Shown in pieces: positions 9,501 through 29,299 of a DNA stretch of 64,000 bases; the stretch's first letter is position 1, and each line of letters opens with the position of its first letter. This stretch comes from Metaphire vulgaris (Eukaryota; Annelida; Clitellata; Crassiclitellata; Megascolecidae): contig JACLAT010000159.1 of the NCBI GenBank assembly GCA_018105865.1, positions 17,843-81,842 of the forward strand, given 5' to 3'. Position numbers and translations under genes: made by a program. The notes under the pieces are model-generated. The model had not been told where the DNA came from. It saw only the letters and a list, made by a program, of their open reading frames with translations, and did no database searches.

Positions 9501-9543
9501 TAAATTATTTAGGTCATGTAGTGAGGCGACTGGAATGGGATAG
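6514..9543 (+). CDS. Gag-protease polyprotein of the LTR element (1009 aa)
   Basis: The N-terminus (about 5-38) resembles a SAP-type helix pair (TKRQLEEECLARAIDTTGLT). Residues about 60-190 are a charged coiled coil rich in Glu, Arg and Ala. Residues about 205-370 (starting VKLPTMHENEDVISYFHSFE) resemble SCAN-like/Gmr1-type gag capsid domains. A CCHC zinc knuckle follows at C437, C440, H445 and C450. A retropepsin-like segment has the active-site triplet as D494-T-A with S497-D498 (the usual form is DTG) and a later IIIGND at 562-567. The remaining 430 residues are acidic, polar and unrecognised. No RT, RNase H or integrase motif appears before the stop. The frame is intact with no internal stops. 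The first ATG follows about 530 nt of leader after the LTR. Confidence is high for gag and zinc knuckle, moderate for a working protease. Confidence 0.9.
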   Translation: MFDTMTKRQLEEECLARAIDTTGLTKKELVKRLKGHERRVQTQREDCLEADVEQAGEESEEETIPTDVNGRRMQLALIQAEERRFAAEADAAKGKELTARAEMEMMMAKATAAREEAAAEERKSRSEREKLEVEAEVAKRKELTARAEADADERRAKSERERLEADKQRFEMELTLLREKAKMGLVQQNLTAGDAETVETNRNSIVKLPTMHENEDVISYFHSFEKIACLNNVDETHWSKMLPALLNSTMRAHYNRLSYEICNDYRRLKCELLKSCRMNSKYYWDKFKQMHRSGKESYAQFLTRLSDMQEYYFQSKEINTFEELKDDILVERFKESLPSDTRYFVDARNPVNAVEVAKLADLHYECTLEAKKDNRFNKGNGSWKKFNDPEQNFDRNQTKPVENFVNRGEGQKPNNGNNFNRQGHSQVDESGARTKGCFNCQASSHKIAQCPLLSRPQVNYISRKGPNDTLLQEYKRKFSIQVSVNDKNAYGLRDTASDITLISSDLARGKPLIRDRKLNVQSTFGQIKWLDACEIQIASPHFGSNSPVTIIAGIVKTLKTQIIIGNDLFIQNPELKDTVSACDHSSKASPEAKNSEPKKPTSEDGREEGKDRTLDHDPVKPDHMAEVMIVTRSGVNGQGSNTSEVPRVPRPTGEGDHTKLTTCPELNSMNREGEGEIKDSSSVMIEFDEETRSQKPVPADADAWSVTNGFKMIYTRTEESLNSEDSPLEAKEFQKTQRSDESLTVYQRSTEDNESGYEENKRFLYKDKTEGKEPTNRLSVIKETDFENPMQTAELLDENAYSETNELATMDTNADGHRTQEPLKFNSLPLETEQPQKTQRDLSQGKAGLTKGTDARRQNENNEKCSRETLSGSNIDDTEKRNIETSSNIINKEYTDIAINIESHLSPELQKNLRELPAEFETKIINKTGEPFEIKLSMHSTKNEKTAPKSQKISESCRGWNYPLKNMIEDKQTNISNRTTQFKKSSELLSASPELNKLFRSCSEATGMG

Positions 9544-10340
9544 AAAACCTATCGGGAGATTATCTCAGGCATACTTAGAGACATAAACGCCTACATTTGC
9601 TATGCTGTAAATATATACACTGCTTAACTACATACGAAAATTGATAATACGTATAAAGAAATCTTTATGGATCAAGAGATCATACGAGAAGCTAATTTTG
9701 TACTATGTTTATTATTCTGTTTTGTTTTATATTAATGTTTAATTTGAATCATGCATTCTATTGTTAAACGTGACCATCAGCTCACATTGATTTTTTAACA
9801 TGGATTGTCAGACAGCTTATCCTGAGCCTATTCAGAGCTATAAAAGGCGTATATTGCTGTACAGAAATTACTCATTGCATACAGATGAAAACTGTTGTTA
9901 AAATCTGTGTTGATCATATATTGATCTAGAAATCTAGTTTTTTTTTGTGTTTGAGCGAAATTAAGCTTGTAAATAAATTTATCAGTGTCTATTACCATAT
10001 TATAGTAACATAAGAAGTAGCATATGAATGTTACATTTCAGCTCACATTAAGCGTTTTTTTCTTATATGTTTTTGTTTTAAATGAGTATTAGCATTATAG
10101 AGTGCATTTTTCTCTTTTGTTCCTTTGTTTCTTTTAATATGGGTTTACATAGAGGCTTTTATAAGTGCGATACAAGTTGTTCGAATTATATGTTTTAGAT
10201 GCGCTGTATAACGATGTATGAATTTACTCTTGTACATCTCATCCGAGGAGAACTGAAGTCGCTATAGAACTCTTACTAGACAACGGCCATCTCCATCATT
10301 GAAGCCCGACCTATCATCCGTCAGCTTCGAGGGCGAATGG
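9544..10340 (+). other. Non-coding 3' interior of the LTR element
   Basis: About 800 bp between the gag-protease stop and the 3' LTR. No open frame of useful length exists where pol would be expected. It ends in GAGGGCGAATGG next to the LTR, a weak polypurine tract candidate. Confidence 0.8.
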
Positions 10341-11014
10341 TGTTATGACACTTTGAGAAGGCCAACAAATAATAAGCGACACGAACATATAATTAACATA
10401 TGTTCTCACTCGGAGAGATCATTAGGATCATTAGGATTATTGTAATAATAATAATTTTTAATAGAAGGTGACTTTATAGTTAAAATCTATTAAGCAGTAA
10501 ATAGCAAACAATATAACACTATATATTAAGAAAGACTGTTAGATTGGTGGATATCTGCGAATCAGGAGAAGCCAGTTGAAAGGCGAAACTTGATTGACAG
10601 ATAGCCGCTGGATATAAGCTAGGGAAGAGGGCGAGGCAGGACTCTCGCCCGGGAACAGTGAAACGAAAGACTGAAATTAAAACCCGGAGAGGCGAGAAGT
10701 CGAAAATATAGTGTGAAGAATCGTAACGTATATCTAGAGAAATGTTGTCGGAAATTAAGAACTGTTTTAGACGAAAGATATGTTAATATCTGCTAGGAGA
10801 AGAAACAACTGCGTGTAATGATCTGTCTCGGTTATTCATTAAATCTTGCGAAAATCCAGTTGAACGGTGTTTGTTCGGTGACGTCGTACGAACTCATCGC
10901 GTGCCCCCGAAGAGCGCGATTTTGAGCCAGGCCACTCGGACAAGCTGATTCAATAGCACCGCTACCACCATAATGTCGAAAAGGAGTGTACGACAACAAA
11001 CTTTTCACATTACA
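10341..11014 (+). repeat. 3' LTR (674 bp)
   Basis: No difference from the 5' LTR (5308-5981) was seen on reading both through. It is followed by ATGGC at 11015-11019, the right target duplication. Confidence 0.95.
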
Positions 11015-11094
11015 ATGGCAATCTTATAACACACTCACTCTCAAATACCACCATGTCATCTTCAGAAGAGCGCCTAACGTGTCTCGTGTCTGCA

Positions 11095-11179
11095 ATGGAG
11101 ACCGGAATCCTCATTCGTTTCTGGCTGAAGATTTTCTTCGTGGTTGTTCTTCTGTTTCATCTGGTCGAAATGTGCAAAC
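11095..11179 (+). CDS. Peptide gene 1, exon 1 (signal peptide)
   Basis: 28 codons plus one base, starting METGILIRFWLKIFF and continuing VVVLLFHLVEMCK. Basic residues precede a strongly hydrophobic core. The donor is C|GTAAGATTC. Compared with 20616-20700 several of the few base changes are silent (ATT/ATC, CTG/CTA), with one V/I and changes in the last codons. Confidence 0.65.
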
Positions 11180-11563
11180 GTAAGATTCAATATCCTAATT
11201 TCAATCAAATACGGTACAATGATCCGATTTTTGGCTTTGCTTACGAGTACGGAATAAACTACTGACCAGCTTCCTATTATTTTGCATGCTATCAGCATTA
11301 CATACAGACATATAGTTTCCTAGCGTCTGCCTGTCTGTTCCGTAAAGCCGCCTTCATTGGATGATGACGTGCTGCTGTTATTTTATAATTCGATGCTAAG
11401 GAACGTATATTTTAATATTGCGCGGAAATTGAGGATTGCGACGTAATTCTGTTAGTTGTCTGGCTGTACGCTGCTCTCTCTGTATCTTAAAGATTATAGG
11501 CATTTTCAAACTTTGTGTGTGTGTTCCCTCATTTTTCCAATCCATCTATTCTTTATCCCTTTC

Positions 11564-11613
<50 letters not shown>

Positions 11614-13964
11614 ACTGAAAATAGTGAATAAAAGACCAGGGCTCGAATATGTTGTTTTAAAAATCTAGGGATTTTAGGTTTTCAGAACCGTTTGCACTGT
11701 TGAGAGTCAGTCTCTCCAACTTTTGCATACGTGGAATGAATTTGTTTTCATTTACACTGTTTATAACGAATTTATATAATAGGATGTTTGTCGTTTGGTA
11801 ATTTAGGCGGATGCAACGTAGACTCAGACTGCTCACCGCTCCAATTCTGCACCCTTGTAAAATGTTGCAAGTAAGATTTGCCAGCCAAACTGATGCATTA
11901 CAACTGTTTTTGATTAGTTCAAATATTAGTTGTCTGGCTGTATACGCTGCTCTCTGAATCTTATAGATTACAGGCATTATAGATTATAATTATAGAAGTC
12001 GTAGCGAGTGTCAGATCGTCACCCAACAAGCAGTGCTCCATCTGACCCACTGCCTATTAAGTGGCTTCTTAAGGATGTGATCCTCACGTTGGCTCCGTTT
12101 CTGACGGCCATAATGACTGCTTCCCTCGTTAATGGCGAGTTTCCGTTGCCGTGGAAGCATGCCGTTACCCGCCCGAACCTTAAGCGGGCAGGCCTTGATC
12201 CCACCGACCTAGCCAGTTTCAGACCAATAGCCAACCTTCCATTCCTGTCGAAGCTGCTCGAGAGACTGGTGAACACGCAACTCGTCAGGCACCTGGCCTG
12301 TAACGGTCTCAAGCCGCGTCATCAGTCTGCCTATCGAGCGGGCCATTCCACTGAGACAGCCCTGCTCAGGATTTTCAACGACATTGTTGACGCGACTACC
12401 AATGGCGATCAGGCGCTTCTGTGTATGCTTGACCTCTCCGCAGCGTTCGATACCGTACACCACTCTCAGTGGCGTATTTACCATTGGGCCATTTGGGCCA
12501 TGCCCTCCCCCTTTGGTCTTGGCCTAGCCTGTCCCCAGACCCCCATTATAGGCGAGCGCGAAGCGCGAGCCATGGGCTGGCCCCTTACCAAAATTCTAAA
12601 TACGCCACTGACCACTCTATCCTCATTCGCCGCCCCGAGCTATCCTTCGGGATTAAAGACCAAGCGCTACTCTGGCTGTACGACTACCTCTCCGAGAGGA
12701 CGCAGTCTGTCACCTGGGAGGGCCGCACCTCAGCTAAATGTCCTGTACGCTGCGGAGTACCACAAGGGTCAATCCTAGGCCCACCTCTGTTTATCTTATA
12801 CGTCGCGGATGTGGGACGTAGACTCGCATGGGCTTGCCTGGCATGCTTATGCTGATGGCGGGCAGGTGTACTCCTCCTGCCCACCCCTGGAGACGGATCA
12901 TCTGCGAGCTCGCCTACAAGACTGCATCTGCGAGATAATGCAGTGGACAGCGACAAACCGCCTTGCGTTAAACCCCAAAAAACTGAACTGTTGTGGATTA
13001 ACAATCCTCGAAGGGTCCACCAGATCAGTCGAACGCCGTTTACGATCGGAGAGGCTGTCGTCGCTCCGTCTACCGAAGTGCGCCTCCTCGGTGTTCTCCT
13101 TGACGACTCCCTATCGTTCGTCGGCCAAGTGAACTTCGTAACCCGCGCTTGTTACTTTCAGCTCCGAAAGATTAGGGAGATTCGTCGTTACATCTCAACA
13201 TCAGCTGCGATACATCTAGTCCGTGCCTTGGTGTTATCTAGGTTGAATTATTGTAATAGCCTCCTCCTCGGTCTTCCCGACTATCAGCTGGGCCGACTGC
13301 AATCGGTCCTGAACGTTGCCGCCCGGATGATTTTCGGTGCCAGGTGGCATGACCATGTTACCCCGTTATTGAAGAATAAGCTCCATTGGCTCAAGATCCC
13401 AAAGCGTATCGTTTTTAAACGATGCTCGCTGACCTTCCGAGCCTTGTATGACCATTTCTGCCCGGAATATCTTTCGCCGTTGATACGCAGGCCGGTGATG
13501 ACAGACTGTCGCAAACAGCTTCGTTCTAGCAAACGATCTCACCTCTACGTTCCCCCTCCGTCCAAGACCGTGAAGCTTGGAGAAAGATCCGTGACTCGGG
13601 GCAATCCTCTCCTTTGGAACGCACTTCCAGTTTCAGTGACCATGACAACCAACTTCGAGTCGTTCTTATCGAATCTTTAAACGCATTTATTTCGTATATC
13701 GTATGACTGCCTTTTGTAAAACGCTCTTGTCTTTAGCCTTGGCCATGCTATAGTGCTACATATATAAGGGGTTACAGTTTTCCTTGAAGGACCGCTTCTA
13801 GAGGACTTTGCGCCGGACTTCTTCACGGCAGCAAAGTTTTTTCCATCATCTCAGTGGATTTTAACATCGCCACCTTCTGAACTTCATTGACATGTCAGCG
13901 GTGTCAAAGCGCTTTTGATTTTGGATTTTAAACCATGCGTACAGCGCTATATAAATTGTCCTGG

Positions 13965-14037
<73 letters not shown>

Positions 14038-15009
14038 GTAGAATAGAATAGAATTAGATTGTACATGAAGTACGACCCTTTTATGCGGAGCATGTATCTT
14101 TTTCGAGTAAATATCAAATAACAAGACACTTAAGCAGCAGAGGGTTTGCAGTTTATCTTAATAGAGAGGAAACACACTATTTTACTGTAACATTACCATG
14201 CAGCAGTTTGGAATCTCTTGAAACAGCTGGTCATACAACTGTAAGCCGATACCGAAGATAACGGATAACTAGACGACGGATAACTGGACGACGGAATGTG
14301 GTATTAGGATCAAAACCTAAATTAGTAATAGTGATGATTACGGGAAATAAATGCTTCGTCATATTTCTTCGCATTTTAATGCATTACGTTAAATTTTTCT
14401 TAGAATTTAATATCGATGCCACAACGTCATTATAGTAACTGTTACGTAGTCTTTTAAAATTTTCGAACAGGACAAAGGGACATCCAGAATAAGTGACCCA
14501 CCATTGGATAGTTAAGAAACAGCGTAGGTCAAATTATCAAGCAACAGGATCATCAGCAGTACAGTAAGTAAAGTGTTTTTCTGAAATTCCAGCATCATTA
14601 TGTAATTTACAATCGAATTGCAGTTGGTCTAATTTGGTATCATTACGAAGCACTTCGAAGTCCAAATATTATAGCCATTCTCACAACTGTGAAATCTTGC
14701 ATTTTGCCTACGCAGTATTTCATTCAGGCCAGTCAGAGGACCAGTATTTTATCCAGGCCTGTTAGGGGGAGCAGTATTATATCCAGGTCTGGTTTGAGAG
14801 ATCTCCCCACCCAAAAAGCCTCAAAAGTCGCCCACCCAACAATTGTCAGCACTGGTTGACATTTTTTCGTTGAACAATGTCTCGGTTCTCGCTGTAATAA
14901 TTATTGTTTTTGCAGATGTCTTAGGGATGAAGAAAAGGAATTTCAGTCACCCTCTTCATTAACTTTAACTTATTTCAAATTGAAATTTTCACTGTGTAGG
15001 TTATATTAA
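11095..15009 (+). CDS. Small secreted cysteine-rich peptide gene 1 (three exons, family not recognised)
   Basis: Predicted exons are 11095-11179, 11807-11870 and 14916-15009, about 80 aa in all. Exon 1 is a signal peptide and ends in phase 1 (C|GTAAGA). Exon 2 starts after a TTTAG acceptor and carries C-x5-C-x5-C-x4-CC, ending before GTAAGATTTG. Exon 3 starts after TTTTTGCAG and runs to TAA. Compared with paralog 20616-26808, exon 2 is one base shorter and exon 3 is two bases shorter before the shared SPSS segment, so the frame is restored; this is good evidence for coding. Intron 2 is swollen by a LINE (about 12000-14037) carrying a MITE. Sequence upstream of exon 1 matches what is intron 2 in the paralog, so the promoter may be lost. 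Role unknown; a secreted disulfide-rich peptide is the inference. Confidence 0.6.
11567..11610. repeat. (CT)n microsatellite
   Basis: About 44 bp of CT dinucleotides in intron 1 of peptide gene 1. The equivalent position in gene 2 (about 24975-25018) is also CT-rich. Confidence 0.95.
11807..11870 (+). CDS. Peptide gene 1, exon 2 (cysteine-rich)
   Basis: The acceptor is GGTAATTTAG and the donor is AA|GTAAGATTTG. In phase with exon 1 it reads RGCNVDSDCSPLQFC, then TLVKCC. The spacing C-x5-C-x5-C-x4-CC is identical in the paralog (25474-25538) although most residues between the cysteines differ. That pattern is what selection on a disulfide fold leaves. Confidence 0.65.
11925..11985. repeat. 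Local direct duplication of 11449-11505
   Basis: The segment AGTTGTCTGGCTGTA..CGCTGCTCTCT..ATCTTA..GATTA.AGGCAT occurs twice about 475 bp apart in peptide gene 1 and once in the paralog (about 24847-24900). Confidence 0.7.
12008..13680 (+). pseudogene. LINE reverse transcriptase, frame-shifted, split by a MITE, altered catalytic box
   Basis: Domains in order: SFRPIANLPFLSKLLERLV; HQSAYRAGHSTETALLRI; LDLSAAFDTVHH; then a 144-bp MITE; then GIKDQALLWLYDYLSERTQS; VRCGVPQGSILGPPLFILYV; HAYADGGQVY; and after a frame change RLLGVLLDDSLSF, LVLSRLNYCNSLLLGLPDYQ and the C-terminal GERSVTRGNPLLWNALP. The catalytic box reads YADG where active enzymes have YADD. With at least two frame changes and the MITE this copy cannot make active enzyme. 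Assignment to CR1/L2-like clades rests on the C-terminal layout. Confidence 0.85.
12467..12610. mobile_element. 144-bp hAT MITE inserted in the LINE RT
   Basis: Perfect 14-bp terminal inverted repeat CAGTGGCGTATTTA, with 8-bp target duplication ACCACTCT at 12459-12466 and 12611-12618. Removing it and one duplication restores LINE sequence between AFDTVHH and the next RT segment. Confidence 0.95.
13965..14037. repeat. (TAA)n tail of the LINE
   Basis: About 73 bp of TAA repeats directly after the LINE 3' UTR, consistent with a target-primed 3' tail. Confidence 0.9.
14713..14875. mobile_element. Remnant of CAGTGTTTTATCCAGG-type hAT MITE
   Basis: Sequence from CAGTATTTCATTCAGGCC onward matches the left part of the MITE at 26199-26422. 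The right end and the following intron block are deleted here relative to the paralog. Confidence 0.65.
14916..15009 (+). CDS. Peptide gene 1, exon 3 (tail)
   Basis: Acceptor ATTGTTTTTGCAG. In phase with exon 2 it reads CLRDEEKEFQSPSSLTLTY and on to TAA at 15007-15009. The SPSS(L/I)TLTYFKLK part is shared with the paralog, but DNA identity there is nearly complete, so it does not by itself prove coding. Confidence 0.5.
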
Positions 15010-15339
15010 TTTATTGTTAAGTTTCTTTTGTTAAAGAACAGCCTTTACTAGATTGGTATCAAAATTAAATTAACTCGATATGCAATTGTTTTGTATATGT
15101 GTGATAGCCCACTAGGCAGCCAATGGCATTGCATATCATACAAAATATGAAAATACTACAAAACTGTAGGTATAAGGCTGTATGAAGGCTAGATCTAAAG
15201 TTGTTCCCATACTGCAATCAAAACGTTTTCAGAGTTAGTCCCCGGATTCTAGGATAATTGACCACACTGGTCAACACACAATTTGGTGCCTAAATGTTAG
15301 ACATTTTCGTTAGTAATTTTGGTTCCCTGATTTTAAAAA

Positions 15340-15440
15340 TGTTATCACTTTTGTCCCATCAGCTCTAGTTTTTGAGATACGGCTTAGTCGCCCTTGTATT
15401 TTGGTCCAACACATATTGCGTTTATTGAGGAATCTTTAAT
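15340..15440. repeat. Duplicated segment A (second copy)
   Basis: Matches 4409-4515, with GATACGGCTTAGTCGCCCTT in the centre. It lies downstream of peptide gene 1. Confidence 0.7.
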
Positions 15441-15849
15441 CAGTTTGAAATTCTATGTTTTAGCAAAATAAATAGCTTAAAGTAGCTCATATACTAAATG
15501 TTCGGTTAATTTCACACATAGACACATAATATGCCATATGAAATTAATATATTAGTCAGTCCACTGTCGTTTGTAAGACTTCCAAGAGTAGAGTCTGTCT
15601 GGAGTGTCTCGCTGAAGGTTCCAACAGTAATCTGCAGTTACATCATGTGAGTTTCCCGCCTTCCCTGAATGACTCTGATGTCTCTCTTCCTTGACTTTTA
15701 TGTTTTGGTGAAACCTTTCACTTTGCTCTTCATTCATATCACCTAAGTTATCTGGAAATCGATCTAAGTGGTTGTGCTGATAATGGATCTTCATGCTCAT
15801 ATTGCAGCCAAGCTTATTAAAATGTGTGCGCATAGCATGAATTAGATTA

Positions 15850-16312
15850 AAATAATTGTCTGACTTATTTAATTTAATTTAATTAGCTATTTATATTGCG
15901 TCTAATCAATTAATGTTAGCAAGCGCATTACAATTAATGTCAATTATGTCAATTATTATAAGCACAATTAAACAGATGTGTCTTCAACTGTTTACGGAAA
16001 GCGACGGGCGACTTTATGCTCCGTAGCGCTGGTGGAAGGGCGTTCCAGGCATTGGGGTCCAGCGTACGAGAAGGCTCGTTGCCCCATGACTGTCCGAAGA
16101 CGAGGTTTCTGGTATTGACTGGTAGAGGCTGATCGTAGGCCTGGTCTACCAATGGCGGTTGATGTTGGCTGGAGCAGATCGGCCAGATAGGTCGGACAAA
16201 GACCATTCCGTGCACAGAACATCAGCGTGCATTGTTTGTGTTGTATCCGTGACTGGACTGGAAGCCAATGAAGTTCACGAAGCGCCGGAGTGACGCGGTC
16301 TCGAGGTTTCAT
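15850..16312 (-). pseudogene. LINE 3' end (CR1-like RT C-terminus)
   Basis: The minus strand reads RDRVTPALRELHWLPVQSRI, CPTYLADLLQPTSTAIGRPG, GQRAFSYAGP and, after a frame change near 16070, WNALPPALRSIKSPVAFRKQ then LKTHLF. This is the usual C-terminus of CR1-like polymerases. A related copy is at 56770-57275. Confidence 0.75.
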
Positions 16313-16344
16313 ACATGCGGCAGCATTTTATACGCGCTGCAGGT

Positions 16345-16720
16345 CGACTTTCAGAAATCTATTCTCAGTCAAATGTCGAAAAAATCAATCGAGAGATAAG
16401 ACGGCGCTTAAGAGAGCTAGTTTCTTTTATTACAGGTTTTATAGGCCACATAAATATTATAAAATTGAAACTCTGTTTGTGCTACTATAGGCTACAGATA
16501 TGCAAAAATTTAGAAGAGTGATGAAACGAATTTTAAAACCACATATTCGTGTGTCCCCATCTTTGTTCTGTCAAACCGTACTAGAATTGTCAATATATTC
16601 TGTCTCAATTTTTTTCTAGAGCTTTCGAAATGCCACGAAAAATAATGAGCCATTTGAAACGACACTATACAAAGTCTGACAGAAATCTATTCTCTGTCAA
16701 ATGTCTAAAAATAACGTTGA
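16345..16720. repeat. Dispersed copy of the 330-bp satellite
   Basis: About one monomer of the unit that is tandemly repeated at 53930-56300, including GATGAAACGAATT, CAATATATTCTGTCTC and GAGCCATTTGAAACGACACT. Flanking parts of a second monomer are seen on both sides. Confidence 0.8.
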
Positions 16721-17985
16721 GAAACATTGGGCTAGAAACTTATTGTCCTCGGTATCACACACAGCATGCTGTATTTGCACACAATTTTATTTAAAGCTTT
16801 GAAGTCTCGAATTACGGAAGGCATTAAGACCAAAACTAAACGCAGACTTCAATCTGCTGCTTTTCATTTAAATTGAGATCGATTGCAAAGTTATATTTAG
16901 CACAAGTGCCATGTCTGCTATAGAGACATGTTGCTTGATATCCTTTTGAAAGCTCATCTTGTTTCTTCAGCGGCTACAATAGAGTCACGAGAATTAAACA
17001 CCGGAAAGGTTGCCGAGGAAATAACCACAGCGCTTGTAACAAGATTCGACCGTACATATCATATGTGTTTTGGTTTTTTTCAATCATGAAATACGTATAA
17101 ATACGCGTACGGTAAAAGTTCCGTACGTCGGAGCCCGACGCTACTGGCAACGTATTTTTACGTCTAAAATACGCGTATAATATATTTAAATAAGTGGACT
17201 TCTATAGCGCCTTGGAAATCAGGTCCAAACGCTTCGAATCGCTGTGATTTATTAATGTGTTCATTTTAAATTCATGATCACTGGAAGTGCATTTGCATAG
17301 CAATCTATTAGTATTCATGGTTTGTTTTGACCACACACGAAGTTCCTGCACGATCGGCCTCTTCTTTGATCTGAAAGTCAAATGGTTGCAGTTCATTTTT
17401 CAACTTCAGCCACAATAATATTTTCCAATACCAATTATAAATAAATATACGTTTGACCTTCTATCGTGCATTTAAACGAGTGCTAATACACTTTTTCAAA
17501 GAACGAAAAGTTCTTACTGGCGAATTTTCATTCACGTCTTCTATTTAATGAGTCAAGATAAACTGTAGAGTACAAGTTCTGTAATGTATCTGTCATCGAT
17601 CGAAATTAAATTTTCTTAGAAAAACAGGGATATATGGAAATAGAGAACTTTGAAGTTTTGGATCTAGCGTTTGATAAATGAATTTTGCTTGTCAAAAGTG
17701 ACAATCGCGATAACATATAATTGCATGATTTATTGGTCCAAGGCACGATTTAATAATTAGTTAAATTTAGAACATCGGGCTTCAACAGTATTTTAATAGA
17801 ATAGTGAAAGATTAGTCAGATTCGCTTTGAGAGTTATCTCTCGTATAATTAGTTGTCCATCGATCATTGTCTGATGTGTCCTTGAAGGTCCTGGAAATAT
17901 CGAATCCAGGGACCTCAAATATTTTCATGGGAAAAGTTTGTTTATAAACCTGTCATTTTAAGATAAGGCCAGACGAGAATCTATG
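16721..17985. other. Unassigned DNA with a palindromic patch
   Basis: No gene is supported. At 17090-17178 there are inverted ATACG/CGTAT and ATACGCGTA motifs, possibly a small MITE. TTCTATAGCGCCTTGG at about 17200 resembles a minus-strand LINE 3' end. Confidence 0.4.
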
Positions 17986-18254
17986 CAGTGTTGTATCAGT
18001 TATTGATTATTTTCAGTTACAGTTACAGTTAAAGTTATTGAAATTATTTTCCAGTTATAATTACAGTTAAAGTTATTATAATTTTTCAATTACAGTTTCA
18101 GTTACTGTTAATTTTATTTTTCAGTTATTTTCAGTTAATCGCCACCGAACTCATTAATGAAATTTTGATGCGTTTTCTTAATACTCTATTCTCTCTAATT
18201 GATTGAAAACTCTACTTATATGTGCATATATCACATGCATGTCCATCAAAACAT

Positions 18255-18480
18255 CAGTGATGTTAACAAGGTTGACCCCCAAGGACGAGGGCGAGGACCG
18301 ACCCTCCAAGGACGAGGATAAGGACGAGGACCACCCCCAAAAACAAGGATAAGGACGAGGACCCCTTCCCAAGCGCAAGTACCAAAAGGACTGACCGACA
18401 AGGACAAGGATCAAGAACAAGGACAGACCTCTGTAAAGCAGAAAAAGACAGAAAGGGAAAACCAAAAAAATTCAATTTGA
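18255..18480 (-). mobile_element. Inverted CCTTGTCC-type hAT terminus
   Basis: Starts CAGTGATGTTAACAAGG and continues with AAGGACGAGG repeats, the reverse complement of 755-929. The opposite end is not identified. Confidence 0.6.
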
Positions 18481-19433
18481 ATCACAAAATTTAAAAAAGC
18501 AAAAAAGAGAATGCTGTAAAACAAAATCAACTATAGAATTTTGATATATCGAAGCTCAAGGGACTGTGATAAAAATTTATATATATCCGAGTTTCATGGT
18601 ATCTAATTCCGGGTCATTTAAAGCCAAAATTTCATTTTGTGCAAATGTGAATTTCCCGCTATTATACCCTCTAAAATATCGATTTTATGTCAAAATATTA
18701 AGATCTACATCAACAAATGTTAATAAGTAATAAGGTATATCACTATATAAAGAAATCAAATGAAAAATGATAAACAAACCTTTAAAATTAAGAAAATCAC
18801 TTTCTTTAAAATCCCAATGTTTTTGTTTATCGGTGGCAGCTGACCATTGATTGACCTTGTGGACAAAGTAGGCTACAGTCATTAAAGTTTCCAAATCACT
18901 GAGAGCGGAGGTCTTGAGGGGAGGGGAGCAAAACCTCTCCGCCGGCTTGGTCTATTTGTCGGGCTGTTTATTCAGCCATAGTACACCTAGAAAAAGTGGG
19001 GGACACAACCCCAATGTTTCCCCCTCTTTACCCTACCCTAACCTTTCAAATCGGAGAGGGAGCTCGACCCTTGAGGCCTGATAGATGTAGGCTATTGTTG
19101 GCCCCGACTGCAAAGTTTAAAGCCGAGGAGACAATAACCGGCTATACAAAGATTTCCCGAGACGGCCGACCAAAGTCAGATATATTTACATTAACATAAT
19201 TATCAGTACAATTGAAAATGACATGCAGATTATTTGGTCCATAAACATGACATAAATAATTTCGGAAGATAGAGAGTTTCAATGTGTTCAATCGAAGATC
19301 TTTTTGTGTGGTGTTTGACTTCTTAAGTTTTTCAATTTTCAGTTATTTTAACTATTTCAGTTATTTATTTTTCAGTTACAGTTATATTTACAGTTATTGG
19401 GATTTTTCAGTTATAGTTACAGTTACAGTTAAC

Positions 19434-19608
19434 CAGTGGCGGCTCCACCGGGGGGCAGGGGGCCCGTGCCCCCTATTGAGTGCCAGTGCCCCCCCAGTTG
19501 GGACCCTATACTTAATGCTACATACATTAAACAACAAATGGTTGGCCCCCATGATTAGAAGTTGCCACCCCAACGGCCCCCACTTGCCAAATCCTAGAGC
19601 CGCCACTG
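19434..19608. mobile_element. hAT MITE, CAGTGGCGGCTC family (175 bp)
   Basis: TIR CAGTGGCGGCTC / GAGCCGCCACTG with perfect 8-bp duplication CAGTTAAC at 19426-19433 and 19609-19616. Related copies are at about 28583, 44337, 47366 and, at the ends, 63525. Confidence 0.95.
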
Positions 19609-19825
19609 CAGTTAACTGATTTGTTATTTTTCAGTTAACTGATATTTCAGTTACAGTTACAGTTAACTGATACAACACTAAATCTCTGTACTTAAAATCT
19701 CTGTACTTTGTACTTAAATCTATATGACTAGTAATGTCAGTAGAAGACTCTGTGACTAGTAGTCTTAGAGACAACTCATTTCTTAATAGTTGTTCATCTA
19801 TACCAATGCTATAAGATATCAAACA

Positions 19826-19960
19826 TCAGAGGTGTAGTACTTGGTACTTGTACTTGTACTCGAGTTGCATTCGAGTACAAATTTTTAGTACTTGTACTTG
19901 TACTTGTACTTGGAGGCCAGGTACTTGTACTTAAAGCATTGTGTAGTTGCGACATCTCTG
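19826..19960. mobile_element. hAT MITE-like remnant with GTACTT repeats
   Basis: Starts CAGAGGTGTAGTACTTGG, carries many GTACTTGTACTTG repeats, and ends GACATCTCTG. No target duplication was found. Confidence 0.5.
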
Positions 19961-20604
19961 ACACTAAGCATTAAGCAGACAGCTGCTAGGTTGCTGAAGA
20001 ACTATGTGGCCGTGTTCGTTGATCAGGCAGAGCATTGAAAATAAACACAGCCTATTAAATATTCTGTGGCAAAGGCAAACAATAACAAGATCAACATGGC
20101 TGAAGATAAAGCATTTTAGTGCTAAGTTCCTCGTGTCGTTAAGTTCATTTTCATATCAGCCTAAAATTATTCACGGTCTGTTATGACATTTAATCAACAT
20201 TCCGTCTGATGTGAAATAATGAAAGTCAAATCGGTGCATTTTACTTAAGTTTACTCAACTTCGACGATAAGGTTTTCTGCAAGAATCCAGTCTACCGTAT
20301 CCTATATAGACCAATAAATCTGCCGGTTTAATGCGATTATATGATCGCATATTTAACGGGAAGGAGGGCTTGGGAGAGGAGGCGTTGGCAAGCGCCTGGG
20401 AGGGCGAGAGAGAGAGAGAGAGGGGAGAGGGAGAGTCCGCCGTTCGCAGTGGCTTACGCAGGAGGAGATCCGAGTCTGGCGACAGCGACACGTGACCGGG
20501 AACCGCTAGTAAATTAATGCGAATTAAAGAACGCCCGACGCTGTCGCTTCAAACGCTTATCGTATGGTGAATAGATAGCATTTATCCTTGTGAAGAAGGT
20601 AGGA
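19961..20604. other. Upstream region of peptide gene 2, unassigned
   Basis: About 640 bp with no element boundary. It contains a GA-rich run at 20407-20432. Because it lies just upstream of exon 1 at 20616 it would be the promoter and 5' UTR if the gene is real. I see no clear TATA box. Confidence 0.4.
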
Positions 20605-20615
20605 GGCAGTCTGCA

Positions 20616-20700
20616 ATGGAGACCGGAATCCTCATTCGTTTCTGGCTGAAGATCTTCTTCGTGGTTATCCTTCTATTTCATCTGGTCGAAATGTGTGCAC
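20616..20700 (+). CDS. Peptide gene 2, exon 1 (signal peptide)
   Basis: 28 codons plus one base: METGILIRFWLKIFF then VVILLFHLVEMCA, donor C|GTAAGATTC. It aligns with 11095-11179 without gaps. Confidence 0.65.
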
Positions 20701-21791
20701 GTAAGATTCAACTTCCTAATTTCAATTAAAACGGTACAATGATCCGATTTTTGGCTTAGCTTACGAGTACGGAATAAACTACTGACCAGCTTCCTAATAT
20801 GTTGCATGCTATCAGCATTGCATACATAGGCATATAGTTTCCTAGCGTCTGCCTGTCTGTTCCGTAAAGCCGCCTTCATTGGATGATGATGTGCTGCTGT
20901 CATTTTACAATCGTTGCTAAGGAACGTATCTTATTATATAATTCTCGATGTCTGTCCGTCCGTCCGTCCGCAACACGGCGGGTATTGCAAGACGCTGTTG
21001 TCATTGACAACCAAATATTGTTTAATCAAAATGTATTAAAACCAACGGAGCGTTTAACGAAGCGTCTTAATTGCAGCAAGCCCCGTCCCCTTCCCTCACC
21101 ACTCCCTCTCCCAATCGTCCAGGCCCCAACCCATTCCCGCCCGCCCCAAATCCCTTTCCCCTTCCCTTGCCCATCCTCCTTCCCCTCTCCCCATCCCCTT
21201 CCCTCTCCTCATCCCCCTCCCAATCGCTCCAACCCATTCCTGGCCCCAAACCCCGTTCCCCTTCCTCTCCCCGTCCCTTTTCCTCTCCCCATCTCTTTTC
21301 CCTCTCCCCATCCCTTTCCCAAGCGCCCTGGCCCCAATCCATTCCTGCCCCGGTCCCAAACTCCCGTTCCCCTTCCCCTCTCCCCATCCCTTCCTCTCAC
21401 CACCCCTCTCCCAATCGCCCTGGCCCCAACCTATTCCCGCCCCGGCCCCAACCCATTCCCGCCCCGACCCCAAACCCACGTTCCCCTTCCCTCTCCCCAT
21501 CCCTTCCCTCTCACCACCCCCTCTCCCAATCGCCCAGGCCCCAACCCATACCTGCCCGCCCTGTCCGACAGGCCCCAAACCCCTGTTCCCTCTCTCTCCC
21601 CCCCTCTCCCAACCCCCGTACCTCTCTCCATCCCTCTCTCAATCGCCCTGACCCCAACCCATCACCACTCCGCCCTACCCCACCGGCCCCAAACCCCGTT
21701 CCCAAACCTATACAACGCTGCTCCGAAAACCCGTACAACACACTTTCCTTCTCCCAAACCTCACTTCCCTCTTCCAATGCCCTGCCTCCGT

Positions 21792-21839
<48 letters not shown>

Positions 21840-24800
21840 CTTCCTAGCCTCAATACCTATTTTTTTAAATGTAACCCCTCAAGAGGAGATTAAATTTTCA
21901 GACGCCGTCACCGTACTGGGGATTTAATTTTTGGAAAAGCGTTCTTCAGAAATGATTGCTGTAACGTGTTAAATTTGCTATATCTCAGGCTGTATAGAAG
22001 CTAAAAAGATGAGGTTTGCACCATTGTTTAGATTGTTTATTCCTCTTTCTAACCGTCCGTGCAAAACAAAAAAATTTGGGGTAGAGTCCACTTTACGGCC
22101 TAAAATATCATCCTCTCCCCGAAAAATGTTTAAAGCCCCTAGCAAAATATTTTCAGCGGTAACCCCACTTTGTCAGCGGCAAAGTTCTAAAGGGATGTCA
22201 GAGGAACAAAATAAACCAAAAGTTTGAAAATCGGTTGACATTTGGCAAAGATCTATCAATTCTAACCTGATGACCCCAATGTTTGAACATAAGTATTATC
22301 GGCGAATTTCGCGAAAGTTTTGAATTCTGAGAAAGTTTCCAAATTTTTTTGAATTTGCTACATCTCAGGCTATATAAGAGATAAGAAGATGAGGTTTGCA
22401 CCATTGTTTAGCTATTTTATTCCTCTTTCTAACCCTCTGTGCAAAACAAAAAGTTCAGCGTTCACGAGCTTTCCGACAATCAAGTGAGAATGAGGAGCAG
22501 GCTGTTGCTTGGCGTGCAAAAGCAGCACAGCAAACAAGAGAATCAAGCACTGCATGTCGTTCGACACTGCCAAATCAGTACACCTTCCTTGACTATCAAG
22601 GTTCAGAAAATTCCTGCGAATGGGCGTTAACTCGGTTGAAGGAAAAGGCGGCGAGTGAAGGACAACTAATTGCGCAAAATGCTATTGTATTTGCGCAAAA
22701 TCGGAGGTAAAACAGCCAATCTCCCCGTCATATAATGCTATTTCATTTGCGCAAAATCGGGTGGTAAAACAGCCAATGTCCCCCGTCATTTTTGACGGGT
22801 AAACACCTAGTCTTATTATATAATTCTCGATGTCCGTCCGCCCGTCCGACGGCAACACGGCGGGTATTGCAAGACGCTGTTGTCATTGACAACCAAATAT
22901 TGTTTAATCAAACCGGAGCGTTTAACGAAGCGTCTTAATTGCAGCTTAAACCCCCGTCCCCTTCCTCACCCCATACCTCTCCTAATCGCCCAGGCCCAAC
23001 CCATTCCCCCCGGCCCCAAACCCCTTTTCCCTTCCCTATCCCATCTCCTTCCCTCTCCCATCCCCTCCCAAACGCCCCCTGCCCAAACCCCCGTTCCCCT
23101 TCCGTCTCCCCCAACCCTTTTCCCTCTCCCCATCCCTCTCCCAATCGCCCCCCAAACCCCGTTCTCCTTCCGTCTCCCCAACCCTTTTCCCTCTCCCCAT
23201 CCCTCTCCCAATCGCCCCGGCCCCAACCCATTCGGGCCCAGGCCCCAAACCCCCGTTCCCCTTTCCTCTCCCCATCTCTTTTCCCTCTCCTCATCCCTCT
23301 CCCAATCACCCCGGCCCCAACATATTCCGGCCCCGGCCCCAACACATTCCGGCCTCCGGCCCCAAACCCCGTTTCCTTCCCTCTCCCCATCCCTTTTCCC
23401 TCTCCCCATCCCTCTTCCAATCACCTCGAGCCCAACCCATTCCAGCCCCAACCCATTCCCGCCCCGGCCCTAAACTCCCGTTCCTTTTCCCTCTCCTTAT
23501 CCCCTTCCAACTACCCATCCTTCTCCCAATCGCCCAGGCCCCAACCCATCAGCGCTCCGCCCTACCCCACCGGCCCCAAACCCCGTTTCCAAACCTACAC
23601 AACGCTGCTCCGAAAACCCGTACAACCCACTTTCCTCCTCCCAAATCTCCCTTCCCTCTCCCAATGCCCTACCCCCCCGTTATTATATATATTTACTCTT
23701 TCCTAACCTCAAACCCTATTTTTTTAAATTTTACCCCTCAAGTGTGGATTAAATTTTCAGACGCTGTCACCGTACTGGGGATTTAATTTTTGGAAAAGCG
23801 TTCTTCAGAAATGATTGCTGTAACGTTTTAAATTTGCTATATCTCAGGCTATATAGGAGCTAAAAAGATGAGGTTTGCACCATTGTTTAGATTGTTTATT
23901 TTTCTTTCTAACCGTCCGTGCAAAACAAAAAAATATGGGGGTAGAGTTCACTTTACGGCCTAAAATATCACCCTCTCCCCCGAAAATTTTTTTAAAGCCC
24001 GCTAGCAAAATATTTTCAGCGGTAACCCCACTTTGGTCAGCGGCAAAATTGTAAAGGGATGTCAGAGGAACAAAATAAACCAAAAATTTTGAAAATCGGT
24101 TGACATTTGGTAAAGATCTATCCGTTCTAACCCGATGACCCCGATGTTTGAACATAAGTATTATCGGTGAATTTCGTGAAAGTTTTGAATTCTGAGAAAG
24201 TTTCCAATTTTTTTGAATTTGCTATATCTCAGGCTATATAAGAGCTAAGAAGATGAGATTTGCACCATTGTTTAGCTTTTTTATTCCTCTTTCTAACCGT
24301 CCGTGCAAAACAAAAAAGTCCAGCGTTCACGAGCTTTTCGACAATCAAGTGAGAATGAGGAGCAGGCTGTTGCTCGGCGTGAAAAGCAGCACAGCAAACA
24401 AGAGAATCAAGCACTGCATGTCGTTCGACACTGCCAAATCAGTACACTTACCTTGACTATCAAGTTTCAGCAAATTCCTGCGAATGGGCGTTAACTCGGT
24501 TGAAGGAAAAGGCGGCGATTTAAGGAAATTAATTGCGCAAAATCCTATTGCATTCAGGGTCGGCGCTAGAGGGGATTGTCCGCGGATCCGGATCCACCCA
24601 GCAAATCGTTCAAATACGCAGAAAAATGTTGATTGGGGGGTGAGGGGTAGTCTGAGCCGGCGGGTCCTGGCTGTGTAGATTGCATTAGACCCACCCAGTC
24701 AACAAATTACAAAACCCAGCGCCGCCCCTGATTGCATTTGCACAAAATTGGGTGGTAAAACAGCCAATCTCTCCCGTTATTTTTGACGGGTAAACACCTA

Positions 24801-26808
24801 GTATTTTAATATTGCGCGGAAATTGATAGCGACGTAATATTAATATTATTAGTTGTTTTGCTGTGCGCTGTTCTCTGTATCATATAGGTTATCATTATAG
24901 ACAGTTTTCTAACTTTGCGTGTGTTCCCTCATTTTTCCAATCCTTATCTACTCCGTCCCTCTCCTTAACCTCTGTCTCTGTCTCTGTCTTTCTCTCCGTG
25001 TCTCTTTCTCTCTCTCTCGTCGCTGTACATGGTCAACAAAAGACCAGGTCTGGAATATGTGGTTTTTAAAATCTATGTTTTTTAGGTTTTTAAAACTCTG
25101 TGATAGAGAATTTTCTACAGTTTTAGGTGTTTTTAAGTCGAAAAATTAAAGAAAATTGTATATCAGGTTTCCTTACACTCTGCATACAGCAGCAAACTTA
25201 GGTGACAGGAATACAGAGAGGGAATGATTTATGGCATGAATACACAGAAGGGCTATGGTTGTTGACACGCCAAGCATTAAAATCTCAAAATCTAAATTTT
25301 ATTTCTAGAAAACCTTGGTTTTCCATCCATGTAAAGGAGTAAATTCGTACTTTACACGATGGTTAGTCAGTCTCTCCAACCATTGCATGCGTGCAGTGAA
25401 TTTCATTTCGTTTACACTGTCTATAACGATTTTATAGGCCATACATGAGGATGTGTGTCGTTTGGTAATTTAGGAGGATGCAGTGTACACGAGGACTGCG
25501 GGGTTTTCCAATACTGCGACATGTGGAAATGTTGCGAAGTAAGATTTGCCAGCGAAACTGATGCACTACAAATGTTTTTGATTAGATCATTAAATTTCAC
25601 ATGAAGAACAACCGTTTTCTGTGGAGTATACATCTCCTTCGAGTAAATATCAAATAACAAAACACTTAAGTAGCAGAGTGTTTATACACTGTAGCTTATA
25701 TCTTAATAATGTTTATAGTTCAGCTTAATAGAGACGAAACGCACTATTTTTACGGTAGCATTGCCATGCAGCAGTTTGAAACCACTTCAAATAGTTAGTC
25801 ATACAATTCACTGTCCACCTTCTATAAGTCGATACCGAAGAAGCTGGCCAGCTACGGATAACTAGACGACGGAATTTGGTATTAGGATCAAATAGTAAAT
25901 TAGTAATAGTGATGATTACGGAAAATAAATGCTTCGTCATGCATATTTTGTCACATTTTAATGCATTACGTTACATTTTTCTTAGAGTTTTTATGCAAGC
26001 CCCCACATCAAACAGTAAAATCATCAAGGAAAAGGATCATTGACAGTAAATGGGTAGAGTATTTCTCTGAAATTTCAGGATCATTATGTAATTTACTATC
26101 GAATTGTAGTTGATCTAATTTGGTACATTTACGAAGCACTTCGAAGTCCAAATATTTTGGACATTCTCGCAACTCTGAAATCTTGGGTTTTGCGTACGCA
26201 GTATTTTATCCAGACCTGTTAGGAGAGCAGTATTTTATCCAAGCCTGCTTGGGGATCCGTATTATATCCATGTCTGTTAGGGAGATCTCTCCACCCAAAA
26301 CCCTCAAAAGTCCCCCCCCCCCAATAGCTCTGACATAAATTTTTGCATTGAACTATGTCTCTTCCCCTCTAGCAAAGTCGATTTACTCCTCACCAAATAC
26401 CTGGGGTCTGGATAAAACACTGCGCACGAAATTTCCATACTAAGCTTCGCGTTTGAATTTTAACCAGTTCCTTGGAATAAGTGCAATTTGTAAGTGTTCT
26501 TTGTCGAGTTATGAACAAAAACATTGATGATCGTCGTTTTTCATTGTTGCATTTGGCAAGGGCAAAAGGGACGCCTTCCGGGTCACTGATTTGTCCATTT
26601 GTTTAATAGAAAAGAGAAATGGAGAACTCTGAAAATGGCAGTCTTTTAAACCACTCACTCTCAAATACCACCATGTCATCTTCAGAAGAGCGCCTAACGT
26701 GTCTCGCTGTATTAATTATTGTTTTTGCAGATGTCGTACGGAAGAAGAAAAGGGATTTCAAGTTCACCCTCTTCAATAACTTTAACTTATTTCAAATTGA
26801 AATTGTGA
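20616..26808 (+). CDS. Small secreted cysteine-rich peptide gene 2 (three exons, paralog of gene 1)
   Basis: Predicted exons are 20616-20700, 25474-25538 and 26731-26808, about 75 aa in all. Exon 1 is a signal peptide ending in phase 1, exon 2 carries C-x5-C-x5-C-x4-CC and ends in phase 0, and exon 3 runs to TGA. Splice sites match those of gene 1 (C|GTAAGATTC; GGTAATTTAG; GAA|GTAAGATTTG; TTTTTGCAG). Intron 1 is expanded from about 0.6 kb to 4.8 kb by two tandem Helitrons. Intron 2 contains a hAT MITE and, just before exon 3, the block that also flanks the LTR element. The tail after the cysteines differs in sequence from gene 1 but ends with the same SPSS(I/L)TLTYFKLK. The family is unknown and I do not assign a function. 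Confidence 0.6.
21075..21720. repeat. C-rich minisatellite inside Helitron A
   Basis: Degenerate units of the form CCCCAACCCATTCCC..CCCCGGCCCCAAACCCC. The minus strand is rich in G-runs. The long open frames across it come from the repeat and are not genes. Confidence 0.9.
21795..21838. repeat. (AT)n microsatellite in Helitron A
   Basis: About 44 bp of TA repeats after the C-rich block. Helitron B has only a short TATATAT at the same place. Confidence 0.95.
22782..22799 (+). other. Helitron A 3' hairpin
   Basis: CCCGTCA / TGACGGG, 7-bp perfect stem with a TTTT loop, then TAAACAC and the CTAG terminus. Confidence 0.9.
22960..23660. repeat. C-rich minisatellite inside Helitron B
   Basis: The same degenerate C-rich units as in Helitron A, about 700 bp. 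Open frames through it are repeat artefacts. Confidence 0.9.
24555..24730. mobile_element. 176-bp hAT MITE nested in Helitron B
   Basis: Ends CAGGGTCGGCGCT and AGCGCCGCCCCTG, with perfect 8-bp duplication ATTGCATT at 24547-24554 and 24731-24738. Helitron A shows the empty site (GCTATTGTATTTGCGC at about 22680). A relative lies at 60605-60796. Confidence 0.93.
24773..24790 (+). other. Helitron B 3' hairpin
   Basis: CCCGTTA / TGACGGG, the same stem as in copy A with one G-T pair, then TAAACACCTAG. Confidence 0.85.
25474..25538 (+). CDS. Peptide gene 2, exon 2 (cysteine-rich)
   Basis: Acceptor GGTAATTTAG, donor GAA|GTAAGATTTG. In phase it reads RGCSVHEDCGVFQYC then DMWKCCE. Cysteine spacing is identical to gene 1, and G, V, D and Q at matching places are also kept. 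Confidence 0.65.
26199..26422. mobile_element. hAT MITE, CAGTGTTTTATCCAGG family, in intron 2
   Basis: Starts CAGTATTTTATCCAG, repeats that end internally, and ends GGGTCTGGATAAAACACTG. Flanks do not give a clean 8-bp duplication. Cleaner relatives are at 35175 and 57465. Confidence 0.7.
26602..26706 (+). other. Empty-site paralog of the LTR insertion
   Basis: GGAGAACTCTGAAAATGGC is followed directly by AGTCTTTTAAACCACTCACT and continues to CGCCTAACGTGTCTCG. The same sequence at 5271-5307 and 11015-11080 is split by the LTR element after ATGGC. Here it lies in intron 2 of peptide gene 2, just before exon 3. The short open frame starting at 26619 is probably intronic. Confidence 0.9.
26731..26808 (+). 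CDS. Peptide gene 2, exon 3 (tail)
   Basis: Acceptor ATTGTTTTTGCAG, then 25 codons in phase with exon 2: MSYGRRKGISSSPSSITLTY and on to TGA at 26806-26808. Basic residues near the start suggest a possible processing site, which is inference only. Confidence 0.5.
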   Translation: MSYGRRKGISSSPSSITLTYFKLKL

Positions 26809-27059
26809 ACATATGATATGTTAAGTTATTATTAAGTTTAATTATTTTGAAGAGCAGCCCATATTAATTTTGTCTTCAGAATTAAAACAACTCTCTGTGC
26901 AATTGTTTTGCAATGTGTAATATTTCACTTGATATGGTATGCTTATAGTATGCATGGCACGTTAGACATTAAAATTCTCTAGCACTGGAGGTATATGTGA
27001 AAGATTATAGAATATAGAATTAAAGTTGTTCCTATATTAGAATCAACGCGTTTTGGCAG

Positions 27060-27849
27060 CTGGGCGCCGGCATTATGGCTCCATATTAAGACATTCACTT
27101 ATTCTGGTAATAAGTCGCTTTCAATGCTAATTGACTTTAGTATCCTCGTGGGGATCTGTTTCACAGCGCCAAGCATAGTGCTGCATAGCACATAAGGCTA
27201 ATATAGTACCAAATGCTCATCTGTTCAGTGATGCGCTGCCTGTTTAGTCTATGACATAGGGGCCGTCCATAAACGACGTCACGCTATTTTGGCAGCTTTT
27301 CTACTCCCTCTCCCCCTCGTCGCACATCACAAAAAGTCAGACCCCTCAAATATGACGTCACAACGCATTAACCCGCTCGTCATCTTTCCAATGTCAAAAT
27401 TAACGTTTCAAAACACTTATTTCGTGAACAAAGCAGATATTGAAACGAATTCGTTTTAAAATGTTTATTATAATTGCTATAGTCAAAACGATACTCAGAA
27501 ACGTATTCAAATTCTTTTTTAATGAAATATAATAATCATAAGTGCAAATACGTTCAACTTTGCATTTTCATAACATTGAGGTATCAATAACAATATTTAG
27601 CATCATTTTACGGTACATTTCTAAAAAACCTTTCTTTATTCGGCCGAGCATTTGACTGTTTATTATTTGGTTAAGTCAGTGTTTCTCAACCCTTTTCCCT
27701 CACGCCCCACTGGCTGTGTACCGAAGAAGCGTACGCTCCACCAAGAACCGTCCACTATGATTGTAACGCGTAGCACTGGACAATTCACTTTTCTTGGCGG
27801 CATGTTACATCACAGGACTAACAAAGATATTAAGATATTTTAAAAGATA
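27060..27849. other. Unassigned DNA with one MITE-like end
   Basis: GGGGCCGTCCATAAACGACG at about 27260 resembles the left end of the element at 3031. No partner end is seen. The rest is AT-rich and featureless. Confidence 0.4.
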
Positions 27850-28195
27850 TTAATGATTCTTAAGATATGGTGGGGAATGAAAATCACGAATGAAGAAGTA
27901 AGGAGAAGAATCAGAATCGACAGTGATGTGATAAACACAATCAAAGAAAGGAAGCTCCAGATGTTTGGTCATGTCAGTCGCATGGAGGAGAAGAGAATTC
28001 TGAACGTTGCAATGGAGGGAACAATGGAGGGAACACGCCCTCCGGGAAGGCCCAGAAGACGATGGTTCGACGACATCAGAGAGTGGACGGGATTGAATCT
28101 TGAGAGGCAATACATGCGGCACAAGGGGACCGCGAAAATTGGAAAAGAATCGTTCAGCATGCTACTGGTCTCGACGGTTCCTGGGGACTATGAGC

Positions 28196-28258
<63 letters not shown>
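27850..28258 (+). pseudogene. RTE-like LINE 3' end with (ATG)n tail
   Basis: The plus strand reads ITNEEVRRRIRIDSDVINTI, RKLQMFGHVSRMEEKRIL and TRPPGRPRRRWFDDIREWTG. This is the C-terminus of RTE-like polymerases. It is 5'-truncated and ends in an ATG trinucleotide tail (28196-28258). Confidence 0.8.
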
Positions 28259-28582
28259 CTAACAAAGACCTGCATGTACAAGCTTCACAGGCTCCGGAAA
28301 GTCATTCAAACACTCTACCTCTGGCCACCTTACTGTGTGTCCTCGCTATACAGTGGTCTGCGCCGTCGACTACTGCATTTATGGTGTTCCTGACTACATA
28401 ATATAATATATCCAAAATCCAGACCATCCTAAACGTCTCTGCTACCTGATCTGCCGCCAGGATCGTCGGGCGAGCGTAACAGTTCTTTTGAGAGACAAGC
28501 TCCACTGGATTCGAGTTCGGGGAGCTAATTACCTTCAAGAGATGCCTAATAATCCATGGCAAGCCAGTTATGAGCACCTGGA

Positions 28583-28765
28583 GAAGTGGCGGCTTCATAT
28601 GCGGGTCCGGGGGCCCGTGCACCCCTATTGAATGCCTGACCCCCCAGTGGCCCTCTGTTGCGACCCTATACATACTACTACATACTTATCAACAACTGGT
28701 TGGCCCCATGCTTAGAAGTTGCCACCCCATTGGCCCCCCACTTGCCAAATCCTGGATCCGCCAGT
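28583..28765. mobile_element. Diverged hAT MITE, CAGTGGCGGCTC family
   Basis: Matches the family from AGTGGCGGCTTC to GGATCCGCCAGT, including CCCGTGCACCCCTATTGA and CCACTTGCCAAATCCT. The right end is interrupted by the next MITE. Confidence 0.75.
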
Positions 28766-29018: not shown

Positions 29019-29126
29019 CTGCCAGTGAACTGCATGAACGACTCCGAACCACCCGCCAGCGATACGCTCAGACGTACGACACTGCGATCATCGTCCTCTC
29101 TCTCTACCTTGCCGTCCCGAGGCCGC

Positions 29127-29206: not shown

Positions 29207-29299
29207 AATTCCTACTCTTGGTGATCGCACTTTCTCTCGAAGTGCGAAGTGAACCACTGCTGTGGAATAGGCTTTCGATCCCTCCTGAAATAAGGAGGA

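Follow-up and report, generated by a model that had tools for sequence, protein, structure and literature searches.

A large clustered family of predicted secreted cysteine-rich peptide genes with a fast-diverging second exon

The Late nodulin or nodule-specific cysteine-rich peptides combine a conserved signal with a fast-evolving cysteine core. Conotoxin superfamilies, as far as the available text of PMC3862624 describes them, mostly have three short exons and long introns, with a conserved signal exon and a mature exon in which nonsynonymous (dN) and synonymous (dS) divergence are both raised; among those studied, intron 1 departs from phase 1 only in I2, and intron 2 departs from phase 2 only in I2 and T. 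The cysteine order C-C-C-CC-C is that of framework XXIII of the conotoxin K superfamily (available part of PMC4278219), and the CRP-I peptides of the mussel Mytilus are numerous secreted six-cysteine peptides with a conserved signal and a positively selected mature region (available part of PMC10138031). Here we analyse two three-exon genes, locus 1 and locus 2, in a window of 64 kb (the whole stretch of DNA under study), which is part of contig C159 (81.8 kb) in a genome of 728 Mb and 246 contigs. We propose that both are probably worn and belong to a large clustered gene family encoding secreted disulfide-rich peptides, most likely an effector arsenal serving in venom, mucus or immunity.

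The conotoxin-type phases recur in this family. Of 24 copies, 23 leave exon 1 in phase 1 and L032 does not (L-numbers denote 26 genome pieces, 20 taken around exon-1 matches or upstream on C159 and six others), and exon 2 is left in phase 2 in 18 of 22 copies and in phase 0 in four (locus 2, L011, L012 and L014). Since 18 of the 22 leave in phase 2, this is probably the ancestral exit from exon 2. The cysteine order is likewise that of the K superfamily, whose precursors were not compared residue by residue. In contrast to conotoxins, exon 2 here would encode the mature core and not a propeptide, no propeptide lies between signal and cysteines, the last cysteine lies in exon 3, and the protein searches described below gave no sequence match. 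Since the propeptide is missing and the cysteines are spread over two exons, we do not assign the family to the conotoxins. It also differs from CRP-I, which according to the available part of PMC10138031 has the order C-C-CC-C-C with the whole array in one exon and a propeptide with a dibasic site, whereas the order here is C-C-C-CC, with a further -C from exon 3 where this was found, and KR occurs at the exon 1/2 junction in only 3 of 20 copies (locus 1, L011 and L011b) and RR in none.

Copies of the family and their exon framework

Exon 1 used as a DNA query against the genome gave 40 scored matches among 66 candidates, 15 at 90-100% (C29, C159) and 25 at 80-83% (C61, C24, C45, C43, C4). 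When the C4/C43 version of exon 1 was used as a protein query, 125 candidates were scored, of which 73 reached E<0.001 and 101 reached E<=0.1; this list is a lower bound, the minus-strand copy in the window being absent from it, and its weak entries may not all belong to the family. Internal stops were present in none of the protein matches, the majority of which lie on C29, C24 and C61. The recurrence of exon 1 across the genome rules out a lone two-copy duplicate; the two window genes are, as read from the sequence, members of a large clustered family and not an isolated pair, and that the family numbers scores of members was not recognised in the preliminary description of this DNA. The window pair is atypical of the family. 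Downstream sequence extends beyond about 2.5 kb at 26 exon-1 sites, and at 21 of these exon 1 is followed on its own strand by an open exon 2; the 21 include L017, a near-allele of locus 2, and the plus-strand exon 1 of L023, which is frameshifted. No such exon was found behind exon 1 of L010, L025, L027, L028 and L032, the exon 2 of L032 being split by about 1.4 kb. Four further exon-1 sites stand outside the 26 (window 2264-, L016 9810+, L023 2166- and L029 1272-, the sign giving the strand), with the piece edge too close or exon 2 in another piece, and L032 9475-, a 73% DNA match to exon 1 with no protein-level match, was left out of the exon-1 sites.

Five cysteines occur in the 22 exon-2 sequences considered (L017 and L023, which lacks a GTA[AC] donor, being left out), a count that is partly built in because the five belonged to the search pattern for most copies; L033 and L034, whose exon 2 was found via flank similarity and not by the cysteine pattern, have five as well. 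The preliminary description had given the spacing as an invariant C-x5-C-x5-C-x4-CC, which holds between the two window copies but not family-wide, where the intervals are 5-8, 5-7, 3-5 and 0 residues. The first cysteine of exon 2 is preceded by 2-5 residues, junction residue included, in all 20 copies examined. Furthermore, a cysteine stands in frame just before the exon-1 donor (E-M-C) in 24 of 25 copies; in L023, where exon 1 is frameshifted, EMC is read in a different frame. The net charge of the exon-2 core, with junction residue and exon 3 left out, ranges from -4 to +3, with 15 of the 22 negative, four neutral and three positive.

Exon 3 is alike in eight group-A copies (locus 1, locus 2, L010, L011, L012, L014, L017 and L018), where it starts with ATGT directly after TTTTTGCAG (TATTTGCAG in L011). 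The candidate exon 3 of L013 is preceded by the identical 13 letters, and L024 has a 31-nt exon-3 match downstream of the plus-strand exons of L023. The phase-2 reading of exon 3 opens with x-C in group A, and likewise in the candidate of L013 and the plus-strand copy of L023/L024; where exon 3 has been located it can add a sixth cysteine (CC-x-C). We considered whether exon 2 might be the last exon, ending at the TAA within GTAAG, and rejected this: the donor reads GTACG in L026, L033 and L034, the TAA is out of frame in four copies with NNN|GTAAG, and the reading continues into exon 3 where that exon is found. L012 (near 8272-) carries a second copy of the 3' part of exon 2, donor included, about 190 nt downstream within the intron.

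The family is apparently undescribed, as judged by searches of proteins, profiles and the open-access literature, and the preliminary description had not recognised it either. The protein searches gave no candidate homologue, with the limits that they need three shared 5-residue words, so that distant relatives would escape, and that no conotoxin library was searched directly. Nothing in Pfam rose above its cut-off, and Pfam, NCBIfam and solved structures gave only sub-threshold matches. The family was not found in the open-access literature, where absence is weak evidence. Matches to MRAP (E 0.025, locus 1), Ndufs5 (E 0.089, L018), Myxo_Cys_RPT (E 0.0011, one of 14 exon-2 peptides) and a methyltransferase model (E 0.13, one of 14) were taken as chance. 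The locus 1 model, one of three tried (L013 and L018 were unmatched), gave weak hits to Carboxypeptidase A inhibitor PF02977 (E 0.006, 16.8 bits, cut-off 25) and Late nodulin PF07127 (E 0.17, 12.7 bits, cut-off 30.4), both of which follow the C-x5-DC-x5-C spacing, the stretch shared with the carboxypeptidase A inhibitor knottins. Run against solved structures, the family profile aligned only a 14-residue stretch with seven chains of those knottins at E 0.41-1.6 (six at 0.41-0.5). The usual spacing of the inhibitor cystine knot is not fitted by the zero- and one-residue last loops here. PF07127 is a plant family, whereas the present genome looks animal by its repeats. Other searches bearing on the host gave little: COX1 matched weakly at a single place, and a gag search returned 17 proteins, one of them with a named source and none of them near.

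Divergence of exons and introns

Exon 1 differs by 5-6% within the groups A to D into which the copies fall. Its 100-nt upstream and downstream flanks differ by 30% and 19% in group A, 17% and 6% in B, 4% and 18% in C, and 15% and 19% in D. Constraint on exon 1 is clear in groups A and D; in B and C it is seen against one flank only. Of the 28 within-group pairs, 20 are more diverged in exon 2 than in either 150-nt intron flank (L015-L016 only marginally). In the clearest pair, L020-L022, 16 of 64 exon-2 positions differ against 4 of 293 in the intron (p=6e-10 by Fisher test, applied to nine pairs picked by hand from the 28), and an excess was also found for L014-L018 (p=4e-7), L026-L034 (p=1e-5), L016-L019 (p=5e-5), L020-L021 (p=0.0007) and locus 2-L011 (p=0.003). 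Among the three C29 copies L020, L021 and L022 exon 2 is 21% different and all twelve adjacent 100-nt intron bins are 0-5% different; the whole-codon changes between L020 and L021 in exon 2 are seven nonsynonymous and none synonymous. In group A the value for exon 2 is 46%, with 11-30% in the eight nearest bins and up to 49% in the outer ones. Cysteine codons differ in 193 of 1059 identical-residue pairs and other two-fold codons in 130 of 364, a comparison that is suggestive only, the pairs not being independent and the third cysteine being misaligned in some groups. Since exon 2 diverges more than the introns around it in most pairs and exon 1 is constrained, the sequences point to exon 2 being a genuine reading frame under diversifying selection. 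With a signal-type exon 1 in dozens of copies and exon 2 outpacing the introns in most comparable pairs, the earlier claim of an undescribed family of small cysteine-rich peptides, predicted to be secreted, is upheld in the main.

Several observations weigh against this interpretation. The excess in exon 2 is absent from 8 of the 28 pairs (locus 1 with locus 2, L011 and L014; L013 with L015, L016 and L019; L024a with L018b and L024b), in each of which at least one flank is 39-61% different, that is, hardly alignable. The Fisher tests were not significant for L018b-L024b (p=0.12), L015-L016 (p=0.42) and locus 1-locus 2 (p=0.46); with only the 52 nt after exon 2 as reference, a comparison picked afterwards, the last pair gave 22/64 versus 5/52 (p=0.001). 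In group D the excess is seen only near the exon, farther bins being 30-51% different against 32% for exon 2, and intron 2 beyond 100 nt is equally diverged. Synonymous divergence in group A is high as well, which resembles the conotoxin table in the available part of PMC3862624. In group B exon 1 is no better conserved than the flank downstream of it, and in group C no better than the flank upstream. As for the scaffold, there would be seven cysteines if the terminal cysteine of exon 1 is counted, a signal cut before it leaving seven and a cut after it six, and exon 3 was not located within the fetched pieces for L015, L016, L019 and groups C and D.

The window copies and nearby mobile elements

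The three-exon layout reported for the two loci was confirmed at the positions given in Table 1, as was a third signal exon on the other strand. An acceptor, an open frame with C-x5-8-C-x5-7-C-x3-5-CC and a donor, which together make up the exon-2 pattern, are found in this combination at two places in the window and in none of 60 first-order random sequences of 64 kb. The pattern is thus not due to chance, and we infer splicing at these sites. In its best 10-residue stretch, exon 1 of locus 1 has a mean hydropathy of 3.06. Both copies had been said to keep frame, which is formally so, but exon 3 is entered in phase 2 by locus 1, which gains a cysteine, and in phase 0 by locus 2 (CC-E-MSYGRRK), which gains none, and the two readings coincide only in the tail.

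Table 1. Positions of family exons and associated features in the window
Feature	Position	Strand	Description
Locus 1 exon 1	11095-11179	+	85 nt, signal-peptide exon METGILIRFWLKIFFVVVLLFHLVEMCK, donor C|GTAAG, phase 1
Locus 1 exon 2	11807-11870	+	64 nt, core GCNVDSDCSPLQFCTLVKCC, donor AA|GTAAG, phase 2
Locus 1 exon 3	14916-15009	+	sixth cysteine (CC-K-C-LRDEEK), then tail up to stop
Locus 2 exon 1	20616-20700	+	METGILIRFWLKIFFVVILLFHLVEMCA, phase 1
Locus 2 exon 2	25474-25538	+	65 nt, GCSVHEDCGVFQYCDMWKCCE, donor GAA|GTAAG, phase 0
Locus 2 exon 3	26731-26808	+	phase-0 reading MSYGRRKG; sixth cysteine out of frame
Third signal exon	2264-2177	-	MAKGTIARQWPKMLVVAVLLIQLIDAHCP; candidate exon-2 cassettes downstream, beyond the window (L024 7952-, 5748-)
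Upstream region of locus 2	20301-20615	+	matched over 69 to 314 nt in 9/9 other copies tested; not in locus 1
Stretch between 3' long terminal repeat and locus 1 exon 1	11015-11094	+	intron-2 fragment replaces usual upstream region
Repeat insertion in locus 2 intron 1	20940-24802		two copies of about 1.86 kb; absent from L017

Upstream of locus 1, positions 11014-11086 (73 nt) match the end of locus 2 intron 2 (26634-26706) at 94.5%, and the match to this intron picks up again beyond a long terminal repeat (LTR) retrotransposon, at 5221-5307 and 4515-4590. The element (5308-11014) has LTRs at 5308-5981 and 10341-11014 that are identical over 674 nt, a 5-nt target repeat ATGGC, and a gag-like open reading frame at 6493-9543 with SAP and SCAN matches; it appears to be a very recent insertion. 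Since intron-2 fragments lie on both sides of it and its LTRs are identical, the arrangement suggests an exchange between tandem copies followed by a recent LTR insertion. Locus 1 may be silent, or may be read from the LTR. Locus 2 retains its upstream region and uses the minority frame into exon 3. From 24802 to 33471 the window is 99% identical to L017 (C29:1369434-1379433) over 8.7 kb, with exon 2 identical, whereas the exon-1 side is about 91% identical; the boundary falls inside intron 1 of locus 2, and this locus is read as a mosaic. Contig C159 may represent a haplotig of the C29 cluster or a copy of it that has recombined. Wear is apparent in both window copies, with the upstream region of locus 1 gone and the exon-3 frame of locus 2 altered, in agreement with the degenerate duplication first described.

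The 1.86-kb tandem repeat in locus 2 has one very C-rich strand and a TATATA tract, and similar pieces are found in introns of L020, L021 and L022 and in L023 and L024. An origin of exon 2 from a transposon protein was rejected: it has no family match, and the LTR and reverse-transcriptase pieces sit upstream or in introns. The L024 piece (C159) contains two related minus-strand cassettes 2.2 kb apart and no detected exon 1; since no exon 1 was found beside them, they are possibly alternative exons behind the third signal exon. Elsewhere in the window, an open frame at 39069-39506 on the minus strand has a single long hydrophobic stretch that by eye suggests a type II membrane protein, and Pfam gave no match for it at E 0.001.

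Possible roles of the family

In the proposed mechanism the signal peptide would come from exon 1, the bulk of the mature peptide with five of its cysteines from exon 2, and the tail with the last cysteine from exon 3. Signal removal would leave a peptide folded around three disulfides (C-C-C-CC-C). Its loops would diversify under positive selection while the signal, the intron phases and the cysteine order are held, so that each copy would present a new surface on one shared scaffold, with loops selected for binding changing targets. Most likely the family is an outward-facing arsenal of effectors, used as venom, in mucus or in immunity and caught up in an arms race whose other side would be prey, parasites or microbes.

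Venom and defence roles are about equally likely, each being a serious possibility that stops short of probable. Peptides of immune or mucosal defence, forming a hypervariable host-defence family like mussel CRP-I and directed at microbes or eukaryotic parasites, would explain a conserved signal joined to a positively selected six-cysteine mature region, as in CRP-I (available part of PMC10138031), although the cysteine order is not that of CRP-I. Typical membrane-active peptides are cationic, whereas only 3 of the 22 exon-2 cores are positive; that 19 of 22 cores are acidic or neutral, exon 3 not counted, speaks against simple membrane-lytic antimicrobial peptides. Peptides directed at prey or predators, convergent with conotoxins, would account for the conserved signal exon, the hypervariable cysteine exon, the phases 1 and 2 and the conserved intron ends, which are features of most or several conotoxin superfamilies in the available part of PMC3862624; the missing propeptide exon, the cysteines across exons 2 and 3 and the lack of a sequence match argue the other way, as does the failure to find molluscan haemocyanin PF14830 in the genome, for which the control was equally silent. 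Ligands of reproduction or self-recognition also diversify under positive selection and the sequence pattern alone would fit them, but it is effector arsenals that more usually have so many copies, each with loops of its own, and we consider this role unlikely.

We regard as similarly improbable that exon 2 is a local hotspot of mutation or gene conversion in a family that is largely non-functional. The high synonymous divergence of group A would agree with this, as would the broken copies (L010, whose exon 2 was not found; L032, with exon 2 split and the exon 1 donor shifted; L023, with exon 1 frameshifted), the worn state of both window copies and the mosaic structure of locus 2. Against it, the acceleration ends at the splice sites in L020, L021 and L022, the whole-codon changes are nonsynonymous in one pair, and elsewhere frames are open and exon 1 is conserved. 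Returning to the effector arsenal, a bolder and still tentative form of it is an independent conotoxin-like system in an animal lineage without a described arsenal of such kind, comprising about a hundred genes with a fixed signal exon, phases 1 then 2, a mature exon evolving several times faster than its own introns, a six-cysteine scaffold over two exons and possibly alternative exon-2 cassettes.

The family would represent a large and apparently undescribed set of predicted secreted, fast-evolving mini-proteins and a source of fresh disulfide-rich scaffolds. The near-identical introns around strongly diverged exons in L020, L021 and L022 would provide a clean natural system in which to separate selection from mutation. 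If it is true that the host is not a relative of cone snails, the exon-phase layout held in common with conotoxins would be a striking convergence.

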